Position numbers and translations under genes: made by a program. Below are positions 2,003 to 29,933 of a stretch of DNA of 38,518 nucleotides, piece by piece. Position 1 is the stretch's first letter. Every line of letters begins with the position of its first letter. The notes below the pieces were generated by a model that did no database searches, had not been told where the DNA came from, and worked only from the letters and a program-made list of their open reading frames with translations. Source of the stretch: a virus; IMG/VR virus record IMGVR_UViG_3300025168_000222, positions 1-38,518 of that record; one strand, 5' to 3'.

Positions 2003-2394
2003 TGCCAAGATTTAGCACAAAAAGTAAAGGTAAATTATATACTTGCGATGAACGATTGATTGAGTTATTTGAAGAGGTAGTAGAAGGTTTTGATTGCACA
2101 GTATTAGAAGGTCATAGAGGACAGAAAGCTCAAGATGCGGCATATAATAGAGGAAATAGTAAACTTAAGTTCCCGAATGGTAAGCATAATAAAAGTCCCA
2201 GTATTGCTGTTGACGTTGCTCCTTATCCTATTGATTGGGATGATAGGGATAGGTTTCATTACTTTGGCGGTTACGTTCTTGGAGTTGCTAAAGAGATGGG
2301 ATTAAAAATAAGATGGGGCGGAGACTGGGATATGGACACCAAGACCAAAGATAATAAGTTTGATGACTTAGTACATTTTGAGATAAAGGAATAA
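2002..2394 (+). CDS. Endolysin, M15-type peptidase
   Basis: This 130-aa protein matches the zinc peptidase family M15 (VanY / L-alanyl-D-glutamate endopeptidase type) used by phages to cut peptidoglycan cross-link peptides. Visible zinc-site residues are H62 in GKHNKSPS, D71 in SIAVDVAPYP and H125 in DDLVHFEI. The length equals a bare catalytic domain with no cell-wall-binding domain and no signal peptide, so release through a holin is expected. The start overlaps the previous stop. It is clearly functional by motif; the exact bond cut is inferred from the family. Confidence 0.9.
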   Translation: MPRFSTKSKGKLYTCDERLIELFEEVVEGFDCTVLEGHRGQKAQDAAYNRGNSKLKFPNGKHNKSPSIAVDVAPYPIDWDDRDRFHYFGGYVLGVAKEMGLKIRWGGDWDMDTKTKDNKFDDLVHFEIKE

Positions 2395-4760
2395 TGCCTA
2401 AACAGTTTAAAACATACACACGTTTTGATGGTGGTCTTAACACTAAGACTAACTCACGCTCTATTGCAGATAACGAACTAGCTCAAGCTAATAATGTTAT
2501 TGTAGATGAGTTTGGTACAGTAAAGTCATCTGGCAGAGTAACTGATAATACAAGCGATTATGGAACAATTAATTTAGACGCATCTCAGCCTGGATATGGA
2601 TTGTTTCAAGCAAGAGTGGATTATACTGGAGTAAGTGGATCTGGAACAAATACTTCTACCATTAAAACATTCTTAGCGGATACAGATGCTACTTCAGATA
2701 CTAGAATAGATGTTGGGGATAGTAATGGAACATTTGCTGAAGCAATAGATTTAGGTAGCACTGCAAATGGTAAAGTAATATATGATTTAGCTGATGGTGT
2801 GGTAAGAGTTTGTGATACTAATTTTGGTGCTGGTAATAGTGTAAAATGGTATGGATATGTAAATAAAAAACTATGGCTAGATGACAGCTTTAGCCAGTTA
2901 AATGTTGGAGGAGGTAGTGCTCAGACAGTAAATCAATGGGTAGTATCTGATGCTCCGCCAAAGCAACCATTTGCTGGAACTGCTGCTTCGGCTACTAATA
3001 GTAAAGCTGCAACTGGATTAAATCTTGCCGTTCTTGGTTTTGAAGATACTCTTGAGGGTATTGCTAGTGGAACTGGTATTGAACTAGCTAACAATATAAC
3101 TGATACTGGAAATACTTCTGGTTCTGATACTCAGCTAGACACTGGTTTGTATACTATTGTTAATTCATCTGGAACTGATACAGTGGGAATAGCTTCTAGA
3201 ACTGATAACGATACTTTGATTATAGATTCTTCTAAAACTTGGAATGCTGCTGGTAGCGATGTCAAGCTTTACATATTCCCTGACGCTGGTTTAGGCTTCA
3301 ATGTTCAGGCTTTGGCTTCTGGAAGCGATGGAACAATACCAGCTGGTACATATGAGTTTGCACAAACATTTATTTATGATGGTGCTCAAGAGTCGTTACC
3401 TACAGTAATGACTGGCTTAACAGATGTCTCTGCTAATAACAGGCTCAGTATATCTATTGCAGCATCACATGGATATGATGAAAGAATTACTGGTGGTAGA
3501 GTATACTTTAGAGATTCTACTTCAAAGGGAGAGTTTCAATTATTAGTTGATATAGATTTAACGTATGGTTGTAGAACAAATTTAGAAGCAAAGCACGTTG
3601 GTTGGTCAACTATATATAATAATGCTTCTTTTCTGTTTTGTACAGTAGCAATACAAGACCCAAATGTTGATACATATAGCTCGTTAAATGGATATAACGC
3701 TGATTTATCTAGCATATCAATAGGAAATACTGGAGAAGGGTATAAGACTAGCGTAGTGTCAAACAGAAGAAGGTTTATAGCTAATGTAAAGTCTATTAAT
3801 GACAAAGGACAAACAGTTGTTCAGTCAGATAGATTAATGTATAGTGAGGTAAATAAATTTGATACATTCCCACCTTTTAACTTTATTGATATAGGTGTTA
3901 ACGATGGAGAAGACTTTGTAAAGATAGAGTCTTATGCTGATAGACTGTTAGCATATAAGAATAGAACATTGTATGTTATTAACGTGGGTGGTGGTTCTGA
4001 TACTCAATGGTTCTTAGAATCAGAGCATAAAAATATGGGAGTAGACTTCCATGCAGCAGTCGTAAAAACAGATTTCGGTGTAGCTTGGGTAAATAAAAAT
4101 GGTTTATTCTTTTATGATGGTTCACAAATAAGAAACTTGCAAAACAAAGTACTGGAGTCAGAGTGGACAAGTTTTGTAAACGATGATACTATTATTGGAT
4201 ATGAACCAACTCATAAACATTTAGTTATAGTTAGAGATGCTGCTGCTTCTGGTAGTACAAGTGGTGATTCTTATGTTTATAGTTTTATTACAAACAGCTT
4301 TACTTTTGTAATAAATATGGTTGATAACGCTGTAAAAACTAATATTATTACAGACCTACATAATAATATGACTTTAGGTGTAGGAACAGATGAGTTAGAA
4401 TCTTATGACGGAGAGCCAGATTCTGCAGTTAGATTTGATATAAAGTTAAAAGACGATGATTTTGGTTTACCTAATACAGTTAAGAAGATTTATGGTGTAA
4501 CTGTAGAGTATTCTAGTGATGCTGACCATAGCAGTGGGTTAAAATATAGCAATACATCTGATTTGGGTGTAAAGCAAGGAACTGGGACTATTGGAACCTT
4601 AGGCAACACTAATGGAGACTTGGATGTAAATAGAATTACATTTACAAATCCATTATTAGCTTCTTCTTTTCAAATTCAATTAGATTTAAATGGAAGTACT
4701 ATAACAAAAGTAAGTAGTGTTGCAGTAGAGTATAGACCATTATATAAGAGAATTACATAA
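2394..4760 (+). CDS. Large tail structural protein (nozzle/tubular-like)
   Basis: A 788-aa beta-rich, Gly/Ser/Thr/Asp-rich protein with few Cys. Its start (FDGGLNTKTNSRSIADNELA then QANNVIVDEFGT) is a pattern I know from large virion proteins of short-tailed phages, where it lies between the head genes and the internal virion proteins. In that place T7-like phages have tail tubular protein B (nozzle), often with a propeller-like fold. Mid-protein WVNKNGLFFYDG and similar repeats would fit propeller blades. Assignment to the nozzle is inference; that it is a virion protein is well supported by context. Confidence 0.75.
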   Translation: MPKQFKTYTRFDGGLNTKTNSRSIADNELAQANNVIVDEFGTVKSSGRVTDNTSDYGTINLDASQPGYGLFQARVDYTGVSGSGTNTSTIKTFLADTDATSDTRIDVGDSNGTFAEAIDLGSTANGKVIYDLADGVVRVCDTNFGAGNSVKWYGYVNKKLWLDDSFSQLNVGGGSAQTVNQWVVSDAPPKQPFAGTAASATNSKAATGLNLAVLGFEDTLEGIASGTGIELANNITDTGNTSGSDTQLDTGLYTIVNSSGTDTVGIASRTDNDTLIIDSSKTWNAAGSDVKLYIFPDAGLGFNVQALASGSDGTIPAGTYEFAQTFIYDGAQESLPTVMTGLTDVSANNRLSISIAASHGYDERITGGRVYFRDSTSKGEFQLLVDIDLTYGCRTNLEAKHVGWSTIYNNASFLFCTVAIQDPNVDTYSSLNGYNADLSSISIGNTGEGYKTSVVSNRRRFIANVKSINDKGQTVVQSDRLMYSEVNKFDTFPPFNFIDIGVNDGEDFVKIESYADRLLAYKNRTLYVINVGGGSDTQWFLESEHKNMGVDFHAAVVKTDFGVAWVNKNGLFFYDGSQIRNLQNKVLESEWTSFVNDDTIIGYEPTHKHLVIVRDAAASGSTSGDSYVYSFITNSFTFVINMVDNAVKTNIITDLHNNMTLGVGTDELESYDGEPDSAVRFDIKLKDDDFGLPNTVKKIYGVTVEYSSDADHSSGLKYSNTSDLGVKQGTGTIGTLGNTNGDLDVNRITFTNPLLASSFQIQLDLNGSTITKVSSVAVEYRPLYKRIT

Positions 4761-4952: not shown

Positions 4953-5627
4953 ATGACTTTAGCAGAATTAATGGCAAATTTACAATCTAGCCAATCAACT
5001 GGATTTGGATCGGCTGGATTAGATTTATCTATGGATGCATCCTCTGAAAGAAGAGCCTTACAAGACGCTCGAAGACAGCTACAAGAACAAGAAAAAGCAA
5101 GAGGTAGGTCAGCTAAAAAAAGAGAACAAAATAGAGGATTTGGAAGAATTCTTGGTGCTGGACTAGGTGCTGGAATAGGAGCTTTACTTGCTCTACCAAC
5201 TGGTGGATTAAGTTTAGGTGCTGGTGTTGCATTAGGTAGTGCTTTCGGTCAAACTGCTGCTACTCGTGGTCAAAGAGTAAGAGGAGTAGAGTCTGGTCTT
5301 GGTAGTGGTATGTTTTTTAAAGGAGCTAGAAAAGATTTAAGCTCAGCAGAAATGGATATTAATAGATATATTAGCGATGCCAACAAGGGTTTTACTAATC
5401 AAATAATTGCTAGTAGTGTTGGTGATTATTTTACTGGTCAATCCTTAGGGCAGTTAGGTGGTACAGCTAAATACGCTACAGCAGCAGCAGGATTTGGAAG
5501 AAATAAAGCTCTTAAGGATATGTTACTAGATTTTAGCTCGTTACTATACAAAGCACCAGGTACAGGAACAGGTTCTATGAATTACGATTTAGACCCCAAC
5601 ATAAGTACATTTGAGACAGGAACTTAA
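4953..5627 (+). CDS. Internal virion protein with glycine-zipper segment
   Basis: A 224-aa protein. Residues about 30-55 form a charged helix (RRQLQEQEKARGRSAKKREQ). Residues about 63-98 are a Gly/Ala-rich hydrophobic stretch (ILGAGLGAGIGALLALPTGG) of glycine-zipper type, able to enter a membrane. The small ejection proteins of podoviruses (T7 gp14 role) often look like this: stored in the head or connector, then inserted into the host envelope during DNA entry. It is the first of four consecutive genes of this kind. Function is inferred from composition and order. Confidence 0.65.
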   Translation: MTLAELMANLQSSQSTGFGSAGLDLSMDASSERRALQDARRQLQEQEKARGRSAKKREQNRGFGRILGAGLGAGIGALLALPTGGLSLGAGVALGSAFGQTAATRGQRVRGVESGLGSGMFFKGARKDLSSAEMDINRYISDANKGFTNQIIASSVGDYFTGQSLGQLGGTAKYATAAAGFGRNKALKDMLLDFSSLLYKAPGTGTGSMNYDLDPNISTFETGT

Positions 5628-5629
5628 TT

Positions 5630-6295
5630 ATGAATGAAAATTTAAGAGATTTAATAGAAAGAACTTTTGGTGAAGATTACTTAAAGTATTTTGACCCTGA
5701 TTCTTCAAAAATAGCTTCAGCCTTTGGATTTGAAGGAGATCAAGCAGATGCATTTTCTAAATATTTTAGACCATTCAAGCAGGATGCTTTCAATTTAGCT
5801 TCTCAAGAAATAAAAGATAGGCAAGGAACTAGGACTGGATTTTTAGAAAGAGACTATCAGTCTGGATTGACAAATCTTCAATCGCAATACGATACTGGCT
5901 TTCAAGGTTTAAATACTCAGTTAGGGCAAGCTACTAGGCAAATAGCTAATCAGCAAGCTCAGACTGGTGCATCTTTTGGGGCTACTCAAAGACAAATGTC
6001 TGAGTCTAGAGAAATGGTTGGAGATACTCTAGCTGACTTAATGCAAAGAAGACAAACAGGTATGGATTCAATGTCATTAGGAAGGGAAAGAAGTTTATAC
6101 GGAATAGAACAACAAGCTGGACAAGAAAGAGCTGGACTAACTAGGACTTTAGAAGATTATATAAATAGATTGCAGTCACAAGCGCAAAGAGTTGATTCTT
6201 TAGATATCACTGATAACGAGGATTCTAATACTGGCAACAAAAATGCAAGAGGTAGAACTGTTAGAATACCTGACACTAGAACATTTTACAGATAA
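5630..6295 (+). CDS. Internal virion protein, Gln-rich helical
   Basis: A 221-aa protein made almost wholly of Gln/Arg/Glu-rich helix from about residue 45 to 190 (for example YQSGLTNLQSQYDTGFQGLN and QAGQERAGLTRTLEDYINRL), with no Cys and no membrane segment. Long Gln-rich helices are common in podovirus ejection proteins. It starts three bases after the previous stop and is followed by two larger proteins of the same type. No catalytic motif is seen. Confidence 0.65.
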   Translation: MNENLRDLIERTFGEDYLKYFDPDSSKIASAFGFEGDQADAFSKYFRPFKQDAFNLASQEIKDRQGTRTGFLERDYQSGLTNLQSQYDTGFQGLNTQLGQATRQIANQQAQTGASFGATQRQMSESREMVGDTLADLMQRRQTGMDSMSLGRERSLYGIEQQAGQERAGLTRTLEDYINRLQSQAQRVDSLDITDNEDSNTGNKNARGRTVRIPDTRTFYR

Positions 6296-7761: not shown

Positions 7762-10700
7762 ATGCCACAAAAATATACATTTGACCAGCTCATGGCTATA
7801 GGTCAGTCAAACCCAGATGTAAAAAAATATTCTTATGAAGAATTATATAAGCAATCTACTGGTAAAGACTATACGCCAAAAGTAGATGATGGTTTTTTAG
7901 ATGAATGGTTGCCAGATTGGATTAAAAAAGGTTACAATGAATCTATAACTGGTATGGCCAGACAAGTCGTTACTGGAGAAAAAAGATTTGATTTAGATAA
8001 ATATGACCCAGGAGTTCTTGGAGATATAGGTTCTGCGATAGCAGGATTTTTAATGCCAGCTGACCTTGCAGCAACAGTTGCTGGCGGTGGCATTGGTAGC
8101 GTAGCTACAAGAACCGCTGCTAAAGTTGGTTTAAAGAGAGCTATAAATATGGGTTCAAAAAGATTAATTAATCTTGGAACTAAAAAAGAAATTGCAGATA
8201 AAGTAATGGAGCAAGGAGCAAAAAATCTTATATCTGGTGCTAGTGTTCAAGCTGGTGCTTTGTCAACTTACACTGGTTTAAATACAGCCTTAAAACAACA
8301 AATAGAAGACAATGAAGTTAACTGGAAAACAGTTTTAACCGATTCCGCTAAATCTGGTTTAGCTGGAGCAGTGGGCGGAGCTATGTTTGGTAGAGCTATG
8401 GGTAGGGGTAGTACAACAACCGCAGCATTAGCTCAAGAAGCAATAGGCTTTGGAACAGTTGAGCCCTTGTTAGCTGGAGAAATTCCAGAGCCTCAAGATT
8501 ATGTAGGCGCATTGGGAGTTGTTTTAGGAATTGGAGCTGCTAAGTCTTTACCTAAAGCAATAAGAGGTTATGTAAAATCAGTATCAGACGAATACAGTTC
8601 AAAAAAAATAGACCCTACAGGTAGATTATCTGTATCAGAGAAAAACAATATTAGGTCAGTTGCAGAAAGCTTTGCTACTCAAGAATGGCTTTCAAAACAA
8701 GGTAGCGAAATTTGGAATTTAAGACAAGATATTAAGGGTAGTTTCTTACCAGAAGTAAGAATATTGAGAGAAGTAAAAATTAAAAAAGGAAACAAGCAAT
8801 TACCTGGTTATAAAATATTAGAAGAAGGTGGAACAAAAACTAGAACTCTTACCACAAAAGAATTTAATTCCGTATATCAAAGAAATCAATTAGTTAGGCA
8901 AAATTCAGAGCAATTAACTTTAAAGTTAAAAGAGTCTTTAAAATTAACAGATGATGAATTCAAAGAACAGTTAATAAACATACCGATAGAAAAACAAACT
9001 GATGCTCAACTTAGAGAAGTAAACAAGAGATTGTTCACTAGGTATAAAGTTGAAACTCATTATAAAACATTTACAGAACACGCTTCTGAATTACCAGTTA
9101 AAGATATGTTTGATCACATTCTAGGAGATATGTCTATTGCTTTTAAAACAGCATCAAAATCATTTAAAGATGAGGGTGCTCGCTCTGTTATAAAAATGAT
9201 GGATGATGTTAATAGAAATAAAATTGCCAGAGTTTCTACTAAAATATCAGAGTTACAATCATCTCCTTTACAAAAAATAGCAAAAGATAAAAAACGAATG
9301 GAAGATGTTTACAGGGAAACCACTGGTCTTAGAGTTAGAAGTGCAGAAAATAAAGAATACGTTGATTGGTTAGAAAATTGGGCTTCGGAAAGCTTTGACT
9401 ATGCTGGTAGTTCTGGAGTAAAAAGAGCTGCTAAGAGAAAAAATTACCTTCCCGTTGTATGGAAACCAGAAGTTAGGGATGCCTTGTTTAACGACCTTCT
9501 TACATTAGATGAAAAGTTTAAATTAATTGGAGATGATTTTATACCAGATGGAGAAGCTCGAGTAGCATTTAATAACATGTTATCTTCTATGGCTGCAAGA
9601 AAAGAATTTTCTTCTAGCAGTATAAAGATATTAAACAATATTCGAAAAACATATAATGTAGATTATGCTGAAGCATATAAAATGATGAAGTCTGATATCA
9701 TTCCAGATAAAATAGCACCCTTTAATAATATAGAAAATTTAAGAAAATACGATATAACAGATGAATTGGTTCCGTTATTAGAAACTGATTTAAGAGCTTT
9801 AGTTACTGTTTACGACGAGCGACTAGCTAGAAGAGCTGAAACAGTTAAAATGTTTGGCAGAAAAAACGAAGCGTTAAGAGAAATAGTTCCAGAAATATTT
9901 AGAAGAAATCCTAAAGAAGCAAACTTAATTCAAGAAGCTATGGATAGACTCACTGGAGCTGTTGAGAGAGACCCTACTAAAAATTTTAGCCCAAGAGTTA
10001 GAAAATATTTTGAAAACATAATGGCTTTTGAAGCTATGAGTAAGATATCTCTTGGTACTGCAACAATAGCAAACTTAACTCAAACTTTTATATCTATACT
10101 ACCTCAACTTGGATTATATAGAACCACTAAAGGTTTTTTAAAACTTGCTAATCCAGAATTTAGAAAAAAACTACAAGCTCCTCAAGCAGATTTTATTAGA
10201 GAGATGTTGGGAGAAGTTGGAAGCTCATCTGTAATGAGAAAGTGGTCTGATAGATTTGCAAAGTATAGTTTATTTACTGGTATAAATAGATTCAATAATT
10301 TAGCTTCTGCTTCCACTGCAAAAATTGGTATAGATGATTATATAAACACATTTAGAAAAAATCCAAGCTCTATTAAGGGTCAGTATGCAAAGAAAAAACT
10401 TAAAAAATTATTTAACATAGACATTAGGCAAGGAGTAGATGTTGCTGAAAAAGATATAATAGCTGGAATGTCTAACTTCGCAAGAACATCTCAGCTTCAA
10501 AGGGATTTTTTAAAAGAACCATTATGGGCTAGTAATCCAAAAGCTAGACCTTTTATAATGTTTAAAAGCTTTGGTTACAAGCAAGCTACTATGATAAAAG
10601 ATGCAATTAAAATGGAAATGAAACTAGGAAATCCATTGATATTTTTAAGGCTAGGGGTAGGAGGATTTGCTGGAGGTAAATTTGTACAGTGGTCAAAAGA

Positions 10701-11265
10701 AAATATATATTCTTGGTTGTCTGGTAGAGAAGTTTATAATCCACAAGATACTAAATGGCAAGAATTTATAGAAACCATGTCTTCTGTGGGTGCTTTTGGT
10801 ATGCTTACAGATTTTATAGATGCAGAAGATTTTTTGGGTAATGTAAAGTTTGTGGTTACTCCTCCCTTTTTAAGTGATTTGCAAACTGGATTTAAAGCTT
10901 TAGAAGAATTTAGTAGGAGCGTAGATAGTTTTGGATTTACTCAAACATCTTTTAGAAGAGCTGCTTATAAAGGTGCTCCTATATTTGGATCGCTTCCAGC
11001 TAGAGCTGCGGAAAGATTTGTAGCAACAGAAGGTCAAAAGAGAGCCTCTCAAAAAAGCAGAAAAGCTAGAGAAAAAACCAAAATATTAGACTATATGATG
11101 GGAGGGAAAACTGATATAGCTAAAACTAGATTGCTTCAATGGAATAAAAACAATCCTAGGAATCCGTTTACGTATAACGACATAGGGCACAAGGCAATTT
11201 ACAGAAAAGCTCTTCAAAAAAGAATGAAAAAAATAAAAGAAAACATGCCTTCAGTAAGAGTATAA
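7762..11265 (+). CDS. Large internal virion (ejection) protein, 1167 aa
   Basis: The largest gene of the window. Residues about 1-40 are Tyr/Asp-rich. Residues 85-125 and 190-260 contain Gly/Ala-rich, membrane-compatible stretches (GFLMPADLAATVAGGGIGSV; SGLAGAVGGAMFGRAMGRGS), and the rest is long basic and acidic helix. The size, helical nature and order after three smaller ejection-type genes match the large internal protein of podoviruses (role of T7 gp16). I see no lytic transglycosylase motif, unlike T7 gp16, so any wall-cutting activity would have to come from elsewhere. The C-terminus is strongly basic. Confidence 0.7.
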   Translation: MPQKYTFDQLMAIGQSNPDVKKYSYEELYKQSTGKDYTPKVDDGFLDEWLPDWIKKGYNESITGMARQVVTGEKRFDLDKYDPGVLGDIGSAIAGFLMPADLAATVAGGGIGSVATRTAAKVGLKRAINMGSKRLINLGTKKEIADKVMEQGAKNLISGASVQAGALSTYTGLNTALKQQIEDNEVNWKTVLTDSAKSGLAGAVGGAMFGRAMGRGSTTTAALAQEAIGFGTVEPLLAGEIPEPQDYVGALGVVLGIGAAKSLPKAIRGYVKSVSDEYSSKKIDPTGRLSVSEKNNIRSVAESFATQEWLSKQGSEIWNLRQDIKGSFLPEVRILREVKIKKGNKQLPGYKILEEGGTKTRTLTTKEFNSVYQRNQLVRQNSEQLTLKLKESLKLTDDEFKEQLINIPIEKQTDAQLREVNKRLFTRYKVETHYKTFTEHASELPVKDMFDHILGDMSIAFKTASKSFKDEGARSVIKMMDDVNRNKIARVSTKISELQSSPLQKIAKDKKRMEDVYRETTGLRVRSAENKEYVDWLENWASESFDYAGSSGVKRAAKRKNYLPVVWKPEVRDALFNDLLTLDEKFKLIGDDFIPDGEARVAFNNMLSSMAARKEFSSSSIKILNNIRKTYNVDYAEAYKMMKSDIIPDKIAPFNNIENLRKYDITDELVPLLETDLRALVTVYDERLARRAETVKMFGRKNEALREIVPEIFRRNPKEANLIQEAMDRLTGAVERDPTKNFSPRVRKYFENIMAFEAMSKISLGTATIANLTQTFISILPQLGLYRTTKGFLKLANPEFRKKLQAPQADFIREMLGEVGSSSVMRKWSDRFAKYSLFTGINRFNNLASASTAKIGIDDYINTFRKNPSSIKGQYAKKKLKKLFNIDIRQGVDVAEKDIIAGMSNFARTSQLQRDFLKEPLWASNPKARPFIMFKSFGYKQATMIKDAIKMEMKLGNPLIFLRLGVGGFAGGKFVQWSKENIYSWLSGREVYNPQDTKWQEFIETMSSVGAFGMLTDFIDAEDFLGNVKFVVTPPFLSDLQTGFKALEEFSRSVDSFGFTQTSFRRAAYKGAPIFGSLPARAAERFVATEGQKRASQKSRKAREKTKILDYMMGGKTDIAKTRLLQWNKNNPRNPFTYNDIGHKAIYRKALQKRMKKIKENMPSVRV

Positions 11266-20738: not shown

Positions 20739-20768
20739 ATAATATATAATATATATATATATATATAC
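20739..20768. repeat. Alternating AT tract
   Basis: About 30 bases of nearly pure TA alternation (ATATAT...) directly after the rightward promoter and up to the amidoligase stop codon. It can fold on itself in RNA and melts easily in DNA. It could mark transcript ends or a DNA-opening site; nothing more can be read. Confidence 0.5.
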
Positions 20769-22006
20769 TATCTTATAAATCCAATAGCCTCGTAATCCTC
20801 CTTCTTATTATAATCATAGAAGTTTAAGATTCTTTTAGTAACATACTTTTCAGTATTTGAATCTAATCCTAGAAATATATAGAACTCTGCAAGAGTTAAG
20901 TCTCTTGTTCGTATTATCTTATGTAACGCTTGATTATTAATATGGTCTAGGTTTAGAGTTATGTCTCTAGCCTTATCTACTATAGAAGTACATATCCTTA
21001 TCCAATGTAAGAGCTTTTCTTTATTAAGAGTTCCAGAGTGATATCTAAACTCTATAGAGCCATGTAGTATTCTAGCGTGCATATTCATATTGCAATATCT
21101 AGCATCATTGTATTTATCCATAGAGGGGTCTACTCCCCAAGAGCTATACCAAGAATCTATAAAGTCTTGGTTGCTTCCTATGTTTCTTATACTCTCCCTA
21201 GACATTGGTATTCTCTTGCACCATCTACTAGTATCTCTTGAAGGTGGTAGCATCTTATATAGAATATTCTGTACAGACTTACCTAGTAGCAGTAGGTTCT
21301 TAATAGCTCTCCACTCTAAGTCTCTACCATCTACGTGTACATGAACTCCACAGCTTCTATTAACTGCAAAATTAGTAGAGGTATAATCTGTTATATACTC
21401 TACGTCTTTCCATAGAGCATCTCCATTCTTAGGAACTCTAGATACAAACTCTACTGCTCTAGAACCCTCTCCGTGAGCCTCTATGCTGCCGTCGTGTACT
21501 GCTCTCCAGTTACCATCTACCTCCGTAGCTCCATCCCAGTAGTCCCATCCATCAGAATAACACTCTAACTCTAGACCAACTAGTCTCTTGGATTTGATCT
21601 TCGCAAAAGACTCTGAACTAGAATCCATCTCTCTTGTATGGTAGCTATCTAAGTCTACTTCGTCTCCTCCGTCTCCAGGATAACATTCTTCGCAGTATGT
21701 ACAATCATTTTGTTCGTGATACATAGAGTAATCGTTGTGAGTCTCTGAGTTGCACTCCTCACATAGAGAAAAGTTATCATAGTAACAATCTGTACAGTAA
21801 GGGTCTCCATTCTCAGACCATCTAATCTCATTGCTATCCTCTGAATGATGTTCACTACAATCACTACAAGCATAGACATCCTCCATACACTCTTCGCATA
21901 CGTTCTCTTGAGAATTTCCATCTATACTTATGTCTGCTTCGTAGGCTGTACCTTCGTGTACTTCGCTACACATATCGCATGTGTACTGTCCTTCTCTAGT
22001 AGGCAT
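20768..22006 (-). CDS. Amidoligase with N-terminal Cys-knuckle array
   Basis: A 412-aa two-part protein. Residues 1-108 hold 12 cysteines, mostly in CxxC pairs (C10/C13, C37/C40, C47/C50, C71/C74, C82/C85, C102/C105/C108), so a multi-zinc treble-clef or ribbon array is likely. Residues 140-350 fit the glutamine-synthetase-like amidoligase family: GLELE (144-148), D172-G-S, VEFVSR (E186), CGVHVHVD (219-226), RYCNMN (283) and SIEFRYHSGTLN (297-308). Family members form amide bonds using ATP; the substrate here is unknown. The start has a GAGGAGG site. A class-II glutamine amidotransferase gene lies two genes upstream, suggesting a shared pathway. Confidence 0.85.
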   Translation of the reverse strand: MPTREGQYTCDMCSEVHEGTAYEADISIDGNSQENVCEECMEDVYACSDCSEHHSEDSNEIRWSENGDPYCTDCYYDNFSLCEECNSETHNDYSMYHEQNDCTYCEECYPGDGGDEVDLDSYHTREMDSSSESFAKIKSKRLVGLELECYSDGWDYWDGATEVDGNWRAVHDGSIEAHGEGSRAVEFVSRVPKNGDALWKDVEYITDYTSTNFAVNRSCGVHVHVDGRDLEWRAIKNLLLLGKSVQNILYKMLPPSRDTSRWCKRIPMSRESIRNIGSNQDFIDSWYSSWGVDPSMDKYNDARYCNMNMHARILHGSIEFRYHSGTLNKEKLLHWIRICTSIVDKARDITLNLDHINNQALHKIIRTRDLTLAEFYIFLGLDSNTEKYVTKRILNFYDYNKKEDYEAIGFIR

Positions 22007-22015
22007 ATATCCTCC

Positions 22016-22339
22016 TCACGCTATTGCGTAGTTTGTAGTTATTACATAGAAAGCCATATAGTTAACTTCTCTGAGCCATCCTAGAGACTTGAGAGTCTTG
22101 TATATATCTTCTGCTTTACTGCTTTTAACCTTCACTCCCTCTACATCCTCTATCTGCTTAGCAATAAACTCTAGATAAGATTCAAAACTTTCAGTATCTA
22201 CGAAAGGATTTCTCTTAGCTTTATCGTATAGCTTTTTCATTACAAACATCTTAGAGCGTACTCTAATAGGATTAGATATACCAACTACAATAGCAGACTT
22301 CTTCTTTCTAATTCCAGAAATATCTTTGCCTGGTATCAT
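22016..22339 (-). CDS. Small basic protein between amidoligase and amidotransferase
   Basis: A 107-aa protein of unknown family: basic N-terminal part (DISGIRKKKSAIVVGISNPI), acidic helix (TESFESYLEFIAKQIEDVEG) and a hydrophobic C-terminus (EVNYMAFYVITTNYAIA). The start is supported by AAAGGAG placed eight bases before the ATG inside the amidotransferase gene, which it overlaps by 32 bases. Such tight packing between two enzymes makes it a candidate partner or substrate of the amide-forming system. That is inference; no motif proves it. Confidence 0.65.
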   Translation of the reverse strand: MIPGKDISGIRKKKSAIVVGISNPIRVRSKMFVMKKLYDKAKRNPFVDTESFESYLEFIAKQIEDVEGVKVKSSKAEDIYKTLKSLGWLREVNYMAFYVITTNYAIA

Positions 22340-23429
22340 CTTTAGTCTCCTTTGGTTTATTATTATATGGTCTACTGTAATTATAATTATTACAGTCTTC
22401 GCATATATAATGATTATCTAATTTAACAGAAACACCACACCAGTCTCCACACCAATCACATTCTATTCCGTGGTCTATCTCTGCATCTCCTTCTTTATAC
22501 TCGCAATCTATACAAACGAACTTGTTCTCTCTATCGTACCAGATTAAATCCCACCAGTCAGCCATAGTCTTACAAGAAGAGCATTCTTCTTGACTGGCTA
22601 CCTCCTTGCCACCAATAGAGCAGCTTGGTTGGTTATAGTCTGTTACGTAATAGTTAGGTGCAATAGCATTTGTCTCATACTTTTTCTTACTCCAGTTGAT
22701 TTTATCAGACAACTTGTCTGTATCTAGAGTATACAAAGTGTCTACCTTTGTCTCGTGTATAAGAACATTTGCTTCTACTGTATGACGGCTTCCCTTTACT
22801 CTTTTATTTACAACTCCTAATAGAGACTTTTCTAGTATCTCTTTAGTTGATGCATAGAATAAAGCCTTAGCTTCTTTCCAATAGGCAAAAGCAGTAGGTC
22901 TACCATTCTCTCTGAGTAAGTTCAATATATTACTATTGTCCTTAACCCAAGATAGAGCGTAGTCTCCATACAGCTCGTCTAGACATTCTTGAAGATTACT
23001 GTTCTCATCGAACAGAGCAAATATAGATTGAGAATCTACCTCGTAAGACTTGCTTACAGAGACATCATCGTGATTATATATTACTCCATTATGAGTGCCA
23101 ATGATAGAGCCTATCCTAAAAGGATGAGCATTATCTAGAGTAACTTTGCCATGGGTAGCATATCTAGTATGCCCCAAAACAATGTTAGTCTCTGGGGTTA
23201 GCTGTTCTCTGATCGTATTCCAATCTTTACTCTTTACTAAGTTGCTAGACTTTTTAAGAGATTTAAAGACAATAGGATTACTATCTTCTTTAAAGAACGC
23301 TAAGCCAGTAGAATGTTCACCTCTAATCTCTGACTCTCTAGTCAGATTAGTAAGGACTTTATCTATCTTCTTCATCTGAGACTTTGTTTGTGCATTCTGT
23401 TTTTTAGCAATTCCGTATATTGCACACAT
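22308..23429 (-). CDS. Class-II glutamine amidotransferase with C-terminal Cys knuckles
   Basis: A 373-aa protein. The N-terminal Ntn-hydrolase domain is complete for a class-II glutamine amidotransferase: Cys2 as the nucleophile after Met1 (MCAIYGIA), RGEHSTG (36-42), GHTRYATHG (86-94), AHPF (101-104) and GTHNGVIYNHDD (111-122). It would free ammonia from glutamine. No sugar isomerase or synthetase domain follows, unlike GlmS or AsnB. Instead residues 283-346 carry CxxC pairs (C283/C286, C306/C309, C324/C327/C331, C343/C346), like the knuckles at the front of the amidoligase. Free ammonia probably goes to that ligase or to another acceptor. Confidence 0.9.
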   Translation of the reverse strand: MCAIYGIAKKQNAQTKSQMKKIDKVLTNLTRESEIRGEHSTGLAFFKEDSNPIVFKSLKKSSNLVKSKDWNTIREQLTPETNIVLGHTRYATHGKVTLDNAHPFRIGSIIGTHNGVIYNHDDVSVSKSYEVDSQSIFALFDENSNLQECLDELYGDYALSWVKDNSNILNLLRENGRPTAFAYWKEAKALFYASTKEILEKSLLGVVNKRVKGSRHTVEANVLIHETKVDTLYTLDTDKLSDKINWSKKKYETNAIAPNYYVTDYNQPSCSIGGKEVASQEECSSCKTMADWWDLIWYDRENKFVCIDCEYKEGDAEIDHGIECDWCGDWCGVSVKLDNHYICEDCNNYNYSRPYNNKPKETKDDTRQRYFWN

Positions 23430-23480: not shown

Positions 23481-23897
23481 CTATATCCAATAATACTCTA
23501 GGTTATCTGGTTCAGTCCAACCATAACTTGAATAGAACTTAAAGTCTTTTCTAAGTAGGTTGCTTCTATGAGAAGCGTGTAGCTTCTCTTTACCGAGCCA
23601 GTGCGGCATCTCTACGTTGTCGGATATACCATACATTTCCATAGTATTTTTATACCCTCTAAGTATCCATTCCTCTATCATTTTATTCTTGTAGAGAAGC
23701 AGAGCCTCTTCGTAGCCTTGCCACATAGTTACAGCTGGATGATTCTTCCAGCCTTTGTACTCTCTACCAGTCTTCGTAGGTACGCCTGTTAAAGCGTTGA
23801 AGATTTGTAGAGCTTCCACTCTCTGTTTACCTAGCCTTCTGTAGTCTAGGCATTGTGCAGAGAGCGTAAAGTCTTTATATGGTAAAAATGTCTGCAT
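23481..23897 (-). CDS. Pyrimidine-dimer DNA glycosylase-like protein
   Basis: A 138-aa protein beginning MQTFLPYKDFTLSAQCLDYR then RLGKQRVEALQI, followed by GWKNHPAVTMWQGYEEALLL. These are the signatures of the MSMEG_6728 / pyrimidine-dimer excision (T4 endonuclease V-related) family. Such enzymes nick DNA at UV-made pyrimidine dimers, useful for a phage of sunlit water. The N-terminus differs from T4 DenV (no Thr2), so the chemistry is inferred from the family. It lies directly upstream of the amidotransferase gene in the same operon. Confidence 0.85.
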   Translation of the reverse strand: MQTFLPYKDFTLSAQCLDYRRLGKQRVEALQIFNALTGVPTKTGREYKGWKNHPAVTMWQGYEEALLLYKNKMIEEWILRGYKNTMEMYGISDNVEMPHWLGKEKLHASHRSNLLRKDFKFYSSYGWTEPDNLEYYWI

Positions 23898-29005: not shown

Positions 29006-29773
29006 ATGATTAATCGTGTAATAAATAAGATTAGTCATTCTATATATAAAGATATAGAAGAATTCAAGAGGTACAATCCTAATACTGACGCTAAGTATAA
29101 TTGGAGGGATGGTACCGAAGGTAACTGGGTAGTTTCAGACGATGGTCAAGTTTGTCAAGTTCTGAAGCGAGGGAAGCTAAAAGCATCTAGGTCTGATAAG
29201 GTTATAAAAAACTATATCAGGGTACCTCTTGGAACTTTTGTGTGTACAGATAAAACTAAAATGGAGGGTGATCCTAGGAAAAACCTTTATTCGTTTGGCT
29301 TGGCTAATACTAATGCTTATAAACATAAGATTGAGAAAAAAGAAACCACACAAAGAGAGTTTTTGTTTGCTCAGTTTGTTGCAAAGGGCACTGATTTGGT
29401 AGATGCTTTTTTAAAAGCATACCCTACTGAAAATAGGAGGTACGCTGAAGGTCAAGCTAAGATTTTATTAAAAGCAAAAAGGATACAAAGATTGATTAGG
29501 GAAGAAATAGATAAGGTTTTAGTTGATGCAGACATTACACCTCTGTATTTATTAGAACAAATGAAGTCAGTAGTGGACAATCAAAGCTCTAACGACAGAG
29601 ATAAGATACAAGCTATTAAAACATTAATGCAAATAACTGGAATGATGGATACTGAAAAAAGAACAGAGTCAGTAGCTGTATTTCAAGGCTTTACAAAGGA
29701 ACAATTAGATGCCATTGGCTCGGGAAAAGTTAAGCAAATTGCAAGCGCTGAAAGAGAAGTTGACGTCAAGTAG
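29006..29773 (+). CDS. Terminase small subunit
   Basis: A 255-aa protein. Its C-terminal 150 residues fit the small terminase pattern (EFLFAQFVAKGTDLVDAFLK, AYPTENRRYAEGQAKILLKA, RIQRLIREEIDKVLVDADIT, then IQAIKTLMQITGM). This includes the helix-turn-helix that recognises packaging sites. The first 105 residues are an extra region (YNWRDGTEGNWVVSDDGQVC) that I cannot assign; it looks like a small beta domain. The subunit guides the large terminase to phage DNA. The gene lies just after a promoter and 0.8 kb before the large subunit. Confidence 0.85.
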   Translation: MINRVINKISHSIYKDIEEFKRYNPNTDAKYNWRDGTEGNWVVSDDGQVCQVLKRGKLKASRSDKVIKNYIRVPLGTFVCTDKTKMEGDPRKNLYSFGLANTNAYKHKIEKKETTQREFLFAQFVAKGTDLVDAFLKAYPTENRRYAEGQAKILLKAKRIQRLIREEIDKVLVDADITPLYLLEQMKSVVDNQSSNDRDKIQAIKTLMQITGMMDTEKRTESVAVFQGFTKEQLDAIGSGKVKQIASAEREVDVK

Positions 29774-29933
29774 CTGCAAACTTTGTGGGAATAGTTTATT
29801 CCCAAAATCTTACATAATACATAACTTAGAAAATAAAAAATATTACGTTGAATGTTTTACTTGCTTAACAGTCTACACTCATAAACTAAAAATAAAGCAC
29901 GTTGGTATGCCAGAAGTTCATGGAGTAAGTTAA
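29709..29933 (+). CDS. Zinc-ribbon small protein
   Basis: A 74-aa protein with CKLCGN and CFTC pairs (about residues 23-26 and 49-52) and a Tyr/Lys-rich middle; one zinc is likely. The ATG at 29709 has an AAAGGA site but lies inside the small terminase gene (65-base overlap). A TTG at 29760 in the same frame is the alternative start, giving 57 aa. Function unknown; placed between the two terminase subunits. Confidence 0.55.
   Translation: MPLAREKLSKLQALKEKLTSSSCKLCGNSLFPKSYIIHNLENKKYYVECFTCLTVYTHKLKIKHVGMPEVHGVS

Follow-up and report, generated by a model that had tools for sequence, protein, structure and literature searches.

What reaction is carried out by a phage locus in which a class-II glutamine amidotransferase (GAT), a 107-aa protein (p107) and an amidoligase are packed together on the minus strand? 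The locus lies in the IMG/VR virus record IMGVR_UViG_3300025168_000222, and the window analysed here is that entire record, 38,518 bases long and incomplete. A first-pass annotation, made from the letters alone, had proposed the three genes as a possible peptide or amide tagging system. We tentatively favor another reading, in which the locus is a reduced phage module for making and removing gamma-glutamyl amides, acting probably on host cell-wall peptides. The parts of this reading differ in strength: the enzyme families are assigned with near certainty, gamma-glutamyl amide chemistry is probable given those families, and the cell-wall target, carried over from the literature on related cassettes, is a more doubtful suggestion. 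A gamma-glutamyl cyclotransferase (GGCT) encoded elsewhere in the window, which the first-pass annotation overlooked, is the likely third enzyme of the locus.

Enzymes of the locus

The amidoligase scores above the Pfam cut-off for Amidoligase_2 (PF12224, E 7.5e-18). Its catalytic columns are kept in an alignment of 39 amidoligases, with G144, E146, E148, S174, E186, H222, H224, E319 and R321 invariant and D172, R257 and N308 nearly so. It has the ExE, HxH and ExR motifs and the glutamine synthetase/glutamate-cysteine ligase fold, and is, as first proposed, a real amidoligase with an intact active site. While the amidoligase profile found no sequence match in the PDB, the structural model (predicted local distance difference test, pLDDT, 84.7) matches YbdK best (Foldseek E 2e-5, Z 13.2-13.4), followed by a plant glutamate-cysteine ligase (Z 12.2), with glutamine synthetases and Dop lower (Z 10-11; Dop, of the PafA/Dop group, 10.4-10.6). 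The placing of YbdK and glutamate-cysteine ligase ahead of glutamine synthetases and Dop would, as far as a model goes, point to gamma-glutamyl-type ligation. YbdK, a glutamate-cysteine ligase of type 2, resembles the window amidoligase in the fold of the catalytic domain, but at only 11-14% identity, and it has neither fingers nor a GAT partner. The fingers of the window enzyme form an N-terminal array for which Foldseek returned a LIM domain (2co8, prob 0.77, E 0.3) as a weak match.

The GAT is likewise above its Pfam cut-off (GATase_6, PF13522, E 5.2e-15), and the phage GATs, used as a profile, match GlmS in the PDB at E 1.1e-18. Across 12 aligned phage GATs, C2, R89, T92, H113-N114-G115 and D132 are invariant, and these residues align with the glutaminase domain of E. 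coli GlmS. The protein has the class-II features of a Cys directly after Met, a glutamine-binding Arg and Asp, and an oxyanion Asn-Gly, which bears out the earlier view that all class-II motifs are present; the active site is intact. Fingers occur here too: 72 of the 86 phage GAT hits have at least two CxxC motifs in the C-terminal part. From their Cys pattern, the arrays of both amidoligase and GAT are putative zinc binders. An identity with EgtC was not obtained, TIGR03442 (NCBIfam) giving 26 bits against a cut-off of 218.65 (E 5e-6). Trimming of gamma-glutamyl amides is the activity of free-standing relatives in class II, EgtC and Dug3 among them.

GGCT is above the cut-off for PF06094 (E 5e-14) and matches phrog_2520 (E 1.2e-13); by alignment it has the YGTLRxG and YDMYEG motifs and the catalytic Glu, and phmmer found no PDB match for it. 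PF06094 was above cut-off in all four records tested, and a GGCT is found near every locus of the clade that carries p107. Directly before GGCT stands a 74-aa protein with one finger-like motif and sub-threshold LIM/TRASH matches (E 0.002-0.003). This protein is kept upstream of GGCT in 13 of 13 p107-clade loci and is possibly an accessory part. PADLOC models of anti-phage defence systems gave no match for four proteins of the system.

Related loci in other phages

Because amidoligases have no conserved stretch for profile search, we seeded a scan of IMG/VR on the GAT, which returned 80 loci. Partners were sought with hidden Markov models (HMMs) built from phage members, as PF14395 (COOH-NH2_lig) was silent even in controls and therefore uninformative, and PF08443 had little sensitivity, scoring even known phage ATP-grasps under its cut-off. 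An amidoligase was present in 76 loci; each of the remaining four breaks off shortly past GAT. A COOH-NH2 ligase was found in 67 of the 80, an ATP-grasp in 65, and GGCT within the fetched stretch in 32. Eleven loci had GAT and amidoligase with neither extra ligase; ten of these carry the N-terminal finger array, compared with one of the 65 others (Fisher 1e-10, a value that overstates the evidence because the rows are related, the array being carried by roughly three lineages). GAT adjoins every array-bearing amidoligase in the survey as well as in loci L010 and L126. Conversely, GATase_6 was not detected anywhere in the records of Bacillus phage 035JT001, a Porphyromonas phage and NatCom_991, whose amidoligases lack the array.

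The same HMMs found no ATP-grasp or COOH-NH2 ligase in the window, nor in 80.0 of the 80.3 kb of G001 (IMGVR_UViG_3300030708_000851, 80,282 bases), which holds two relatives of the window. Although the window record is incomplete, both enzymes are very likely absent from the whole phage. In a quick IQ-TREE analysis of the amidoligase catalytic domain (89 rows, those lacking the trimming motif left out), the 64 full-cassette amidoligases fall on one side of a branch (SH-aLRT support 98) and the window amidoligase falls outside, so the window does not merely hold the remains of a full cassette. The 13 p107-clade amidoligases form their own group (support 99), which joins the Arthrobacter, Bacillus, Porphyromonas and NatCom_991 proteins with modest support (87). 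As a separate observation, one 158-kb virus contig holds two amidoligases and two GATs (L041:40-11116), with fingers on neither amidoligase.

The combination of GAT and amidoligase, to which GGCT is often added, is already familiar from phages, and the window is less novel than the first-pass annotation supposed; what is new is a minimal, finger-bearing version that contains p107. In PaP3, phiEco32, Proteus phage 3H10_20, CVT22, two oyster-associated phages and QDWS535, GAT and amidoligase are accompanied by an ATP-grasp, a COOH-NH2 ligase and a protein of about 190 aa, usually with a GGCT nearby, and UFV-P2 has been annotated with a like gene set (PMC3890496). A seven-gene ‘peptidoglycan modification cassette’ described for RIO-1-like podoviruses is thought to prevent superinfection (PMC5498523), and PMC10580990 credits the idea of cell-wall modification to Iyer et al. 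2009. The podovirus cassette (RIO-1, PSA-HP1, LUZ24, PaP3, tf, phiEco32; PMC5498523, which likewise cites Iyer et al. 2009) resembles the window in its class-II GAT with a C-terminal finger tail, its adjoining PF12224 amidoligase and its GGCT. The window differs in that no ATP-grasp, COOH-NH2 ligase or ~190-aa companion was detected, GGCT has its own operon on the opposite strand, p107 is added, and the amidoligase, outside the full-cassette clade, bears an N-terminal three-finger array.

Reduced versions are found elsewhere. For example, the unrelated Arthrobacter Laroyevirus Shrooms (locus L009) has the same three enzymes as the window, as consecutive genes 96-98 in the order GGCT-amidoligase-GAT; its amidoligase belongs to the same broad branch (support 87), and ATP-grasp and second ligase were likewise not detected in the stretch. 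Unlike the window, Shrooms has all three in one operon, with no p107 and no N-terminal fingers on the amidoligase. Its gene 96 (L009:2981-3445), annotated as hypothetical, is a GGCT (PF06094 E 7.8e-19). Bacillus phage 035JT001, NatCom_991 and clostridial prophages (PMC11318856, PMC11253131) also pair an amidoligase, in the first two cases of the same branch as that of the window, with a nearby GGCT, but GAT was not detected there and the pairs have no fingers and no p107. Loci L010 (MW202733), L126, L036-L038 and L092 share with the window an N-terminal CxxC array on the amidoligase and an adjoining GAT; p107 is missing from them and GGCT was found only in L037 and L038. The hypothetical protein of MW202733 that follows the finger-bearing amidoligase (L010:3488-4399) is a divergent class-II GAT (PF13230 E 3.2e-6).

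p107 and the surrounding genome

p107 occurs in 11 IMG/VR loci, in the window and in copy A of G001, each time between GAT and amidoligase, so that the gene order first described is indeed kept in relatives. Whole genomes are syntenic within this clade, however, which makes the conserved order weaker evidence than co-occurrence across unrelated phages. The protein has 74% mean column identity in eight relatives, no Pfam match above cut-off, no relative confirmed by a pattern scan of 84,980 bacterial and archaeal genomes, and, by hhalign, no relation to the ~190-aa protein or the small genes that other cassettes carry. A core of three helices is predicted over residues 30-85, with modest confidence (pLDDT about 72-86) and unreliable termini, and there was no fold match in the PDB (best E 3). 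A candidate relationship to JetA was rejected, the similarity being under cut-off. Relatives end in ..AIA or ..GIA, with one ..AIS, and never in Glu, Gln or GG; the terminal Ala (Ser in one copy) disfavors a role as a Pup-like tag. The C-terminus TTNYAIA (22016-22060) resembles an ssrA-type degron, which could be chance.

The positions, strand, lengths and 32-base overlap of GAT and p107 first given for the locus are exact (Table 1). Nine bases separate p107 from the amidoligase, and an AGGAG or GGAG resembling a Shine-Dalgarno sequence precedes each of the three genes, that of p107 sitting within the 3′ end of GAT. With these sites and the overlap, the three genes probably form one translationally coupled unit, as judged from the sequence. 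The two copies of the window’s genome type in G001 lie ~44 kb apart; the window therefore probably covers the greater part of a genome of ~44 kb. These copies are divergent, each with GAT, p107, amidoligase and GGCT (L110-L113), and represent either a chimeric assembly or two adjoining phages.

Table 1. Positions of the module genes and their domains in the window
Feature	Position	Strand	Basis or remark
Amidoligase, GS/GCS-like (glutamine synthetase/glutamate-cysteine ligase), 412 aa	20768..22006	-	PF12224
Amidoligase catalytic domain, about residues 139-350	20957..21592	-	PF12224, conserved columns, fold
Amidoligase N-terminal array, three C4 finger pairs, treble-clef/LIM-like; CxxC at residues 10, 37, 47, 71, 82, ~102-108	21683..21979	-	
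p107, 107-aa clade-specific protein	22016..22339	-	overlaps GAT, precedes amidoligase
GAT, class-II glutamine amidotransferase, 373 aa; N-terminal Ntn-hydrolase domain and C-terminal zinc-finger-like tail	22308..23429	-	PF13522
GAT C-terminal fingers, two C4 pairs (C283xxC-C306xxC, C324xxC-C343xxC)	22392..22583	-	CxxC pattern
74-aa single zinc-finger-like protein, directly upstream of GGCT	29709..29933	+	sub-threshold LIM/TRASH
GGCT/GGACT, AIG2-like gamma-glutamyl cyclotransferase, 114 aa	30177..30521	+	PF06094

GAT and amidoligase are genuine genes whose evolution is rapid compared with that of the genes around them. The window amidoligase is 54% identical, and GAT 61%, to its counterpart in copy B of G001; for DnaB, the Sak protein, exonuclease, terminase, portal and capsid the figure is roughly 80-90%. 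The ratio of nonsynonymous to synonymous substitution (dN/dS) is 0.14-0.40 for GAT, p107 and amidoligase, indicating purifying selection, and 0.05-0.11 for the adjoining PDDEXK exonuclease. GAT and amidoligase lie in a replication and recombination block, and GGCT lies beside packaging genes 6.7 kb away. Relatives of the terminase and capsid are distant and of mixed hosts, and so point to no particular host.

Just upstream of GAT, at 23481-23897, is a pyrimidine dimer DNA glycosylase (PF03013, E 2.1e-24), which is 88-96% identical in the two G001 copies and far more conserved than GAT and amidoligase. A 1167-aa protein beside the structural genes (7762-11265) has only 29-39% identity between relatives. 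Two further stretches, 2394-4760 and 4953-6295, are likewise markedly different from one G001 copy to the other; this divergence suggests mosaic exchange. In one relative, a gene that looks by eye like a PAPS reductase (L022:12101-12877) stands beside a C5 methyltransferase and is not at that place in the window.

A proposed gamma-glutamyl amide module and its alternatives

Amide or isopeptide chemistry, as first proposed, is still the best inference from the family assignments and intact active sites. In the reading that we favor, the amidoligase would be an ATP-dependent carboxylate-amine ligase of the YbdK/glutamate-cysteine ligase type, joining a carboxylate, most likely the gamma-carboxylate of glutamate or of a glutamate-containing peptide, to an amine. 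The N-terminal Cys of GAT would bind the gamma-glutamyl group and either release ammonia or glutamate for the reaction or trim gamma-glutamyl amides, and GGCT would remove gamma-glutamyl groups as 5-oxoproline. The finger arrays of both proteins, with p107 in this clade, probably would keep the complex assembled or choose its acceptor. A cell-wall peptide of the infected host would be the most probable acceptor, altered to hinder superinfection or to tune lysis. Enzymes of the GGCT type split gamma-glutamyl amides, and the recurrence of GGCT fits such a make-and-remove cycle. With GAT and amidoligase in the replication block and GGCT by the packaging genes, making and removing could be separable in time, although this is not general, as Shrooms has all three genes together.

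Several points weigh against this reading. GGCT is in its own operon, on the strand opposite to GAT and amidoligase, and it was not found in the L010, L036 and L092 records, which have finger-bearing amidoligase and GAT (L036 and L092 may be fragments). The ATP-grasp and second ligase of the full cassette, which would build the peptide, were not detected here. The cell wall, one of several targets listed at first, has indeed been proposed for related cassettes (PMC5498523; Iyer 2009, as cited in PMC10580990), but as a prediction, with no experimental demonstration in the literature found.

One possible alternative, which we consider unlikely, is that GAT channels ammonia to the amidoligase for amidation of a carboxylate, such as D-Glu or diaminopimelate (DAP) of the peptidoglycan stem, by analogy with MurT/GatD or LtsA, which use unrelated ligases. 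The closeness of GAT to GlmS, an ammonia-channelling enzyme, is in keeping with this, as are the tight linkage of the pair and the finger tails on both, which could dock. However, some complete phage records contain an amidoligase of this branch but no detectable GATase_6, so this ligase type does not need GAT and the initial claim that GAT gives ammonia is unproven; the repeated GGCT partner also implies gamma-glutamyl rather than primary amides. It is quite unlikely that the module makes or recycles a small soluble gamma-glutamyl compound (glutathione-like or in nitrogen metabolism) as an auxiliary metabolic gene (AMG) set. The similarity of the amidoligase fold to glutamate-cysteine ligases, the weak EgtC similarity of GAT (far under cut-off) and a growth-promotion claim for Phage-ZRK32 AMGs (PMC10945688) speak for it, but no GshB-like ATP-grasp was found in these records with the insensitive PF08443, the finger arrays suggest a macromolecular partner, and, in contrast to housekeeping metabolism, GAT and amidoligase have diverged more quickly than the replication and packaging proteins nearby. 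Modification of a nucleotide or DNA base is highly improbable. Class-II GATs occur with QueC in some phage DNA-modification pathways and the window encodes a cytosine-C5 methyltransferase; this gene is not adjacent to the module, QueC is absent from the window and its relatives (PF06508 in records G000, G001 and G003, with a positive control), and GGCT is not known to take part in any base-modification pathway.

The tagging model, in which the amidoligase joins p107 as a protein tag or adaptor to targets, draws on the constant position of p107 between GAT and amidoligase, its overlap with GAT and a conservation at least equal to that of the enzymes. We regard it as decidedly improbable, given the C-terminus of p107, an amidoligase fold nearer YbdK than Dop, and a gene order that partly reflects general synteny. 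Moreover, p107 is absent from the related GAT-amidoligase systems L009, L010, L036-L038, L092 and L126. The three genes are thus not supported as a unit, the recurring partner elsewhere being GGCT, and p107, confined to one clade, is not a universal substrate or adaptor, GAT-amidoligase-GGCT occurring without it in Shrooms; a scaffolding or regulatory role specific to the clade is more likely for p107 than that of a general substrate. A further, improbable variant is a finger-docked complex of amidoligase, GAT and p107 in which p107 presents or is the acceptor, giving a phage-specific peptide conjugate reversed by GGCT, unlike the cell-wall cassette; if true, this would amount to a compact cycle of reversible conjugation.

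Annotations of phage amidoligase cassettes go back more than 15 years, with predicted targets only in the literature found. Two adjacent enzymes, a remote GGCT and a small partner are far easier to reconstitute than a seven-gene cassette, and the association of amidoligase finger arrays with a GAT offers a hint as to what keeps the complex assembled. Such a stripped-down module could decide between cell-wall peptides, proteins and metabolites as the targets.

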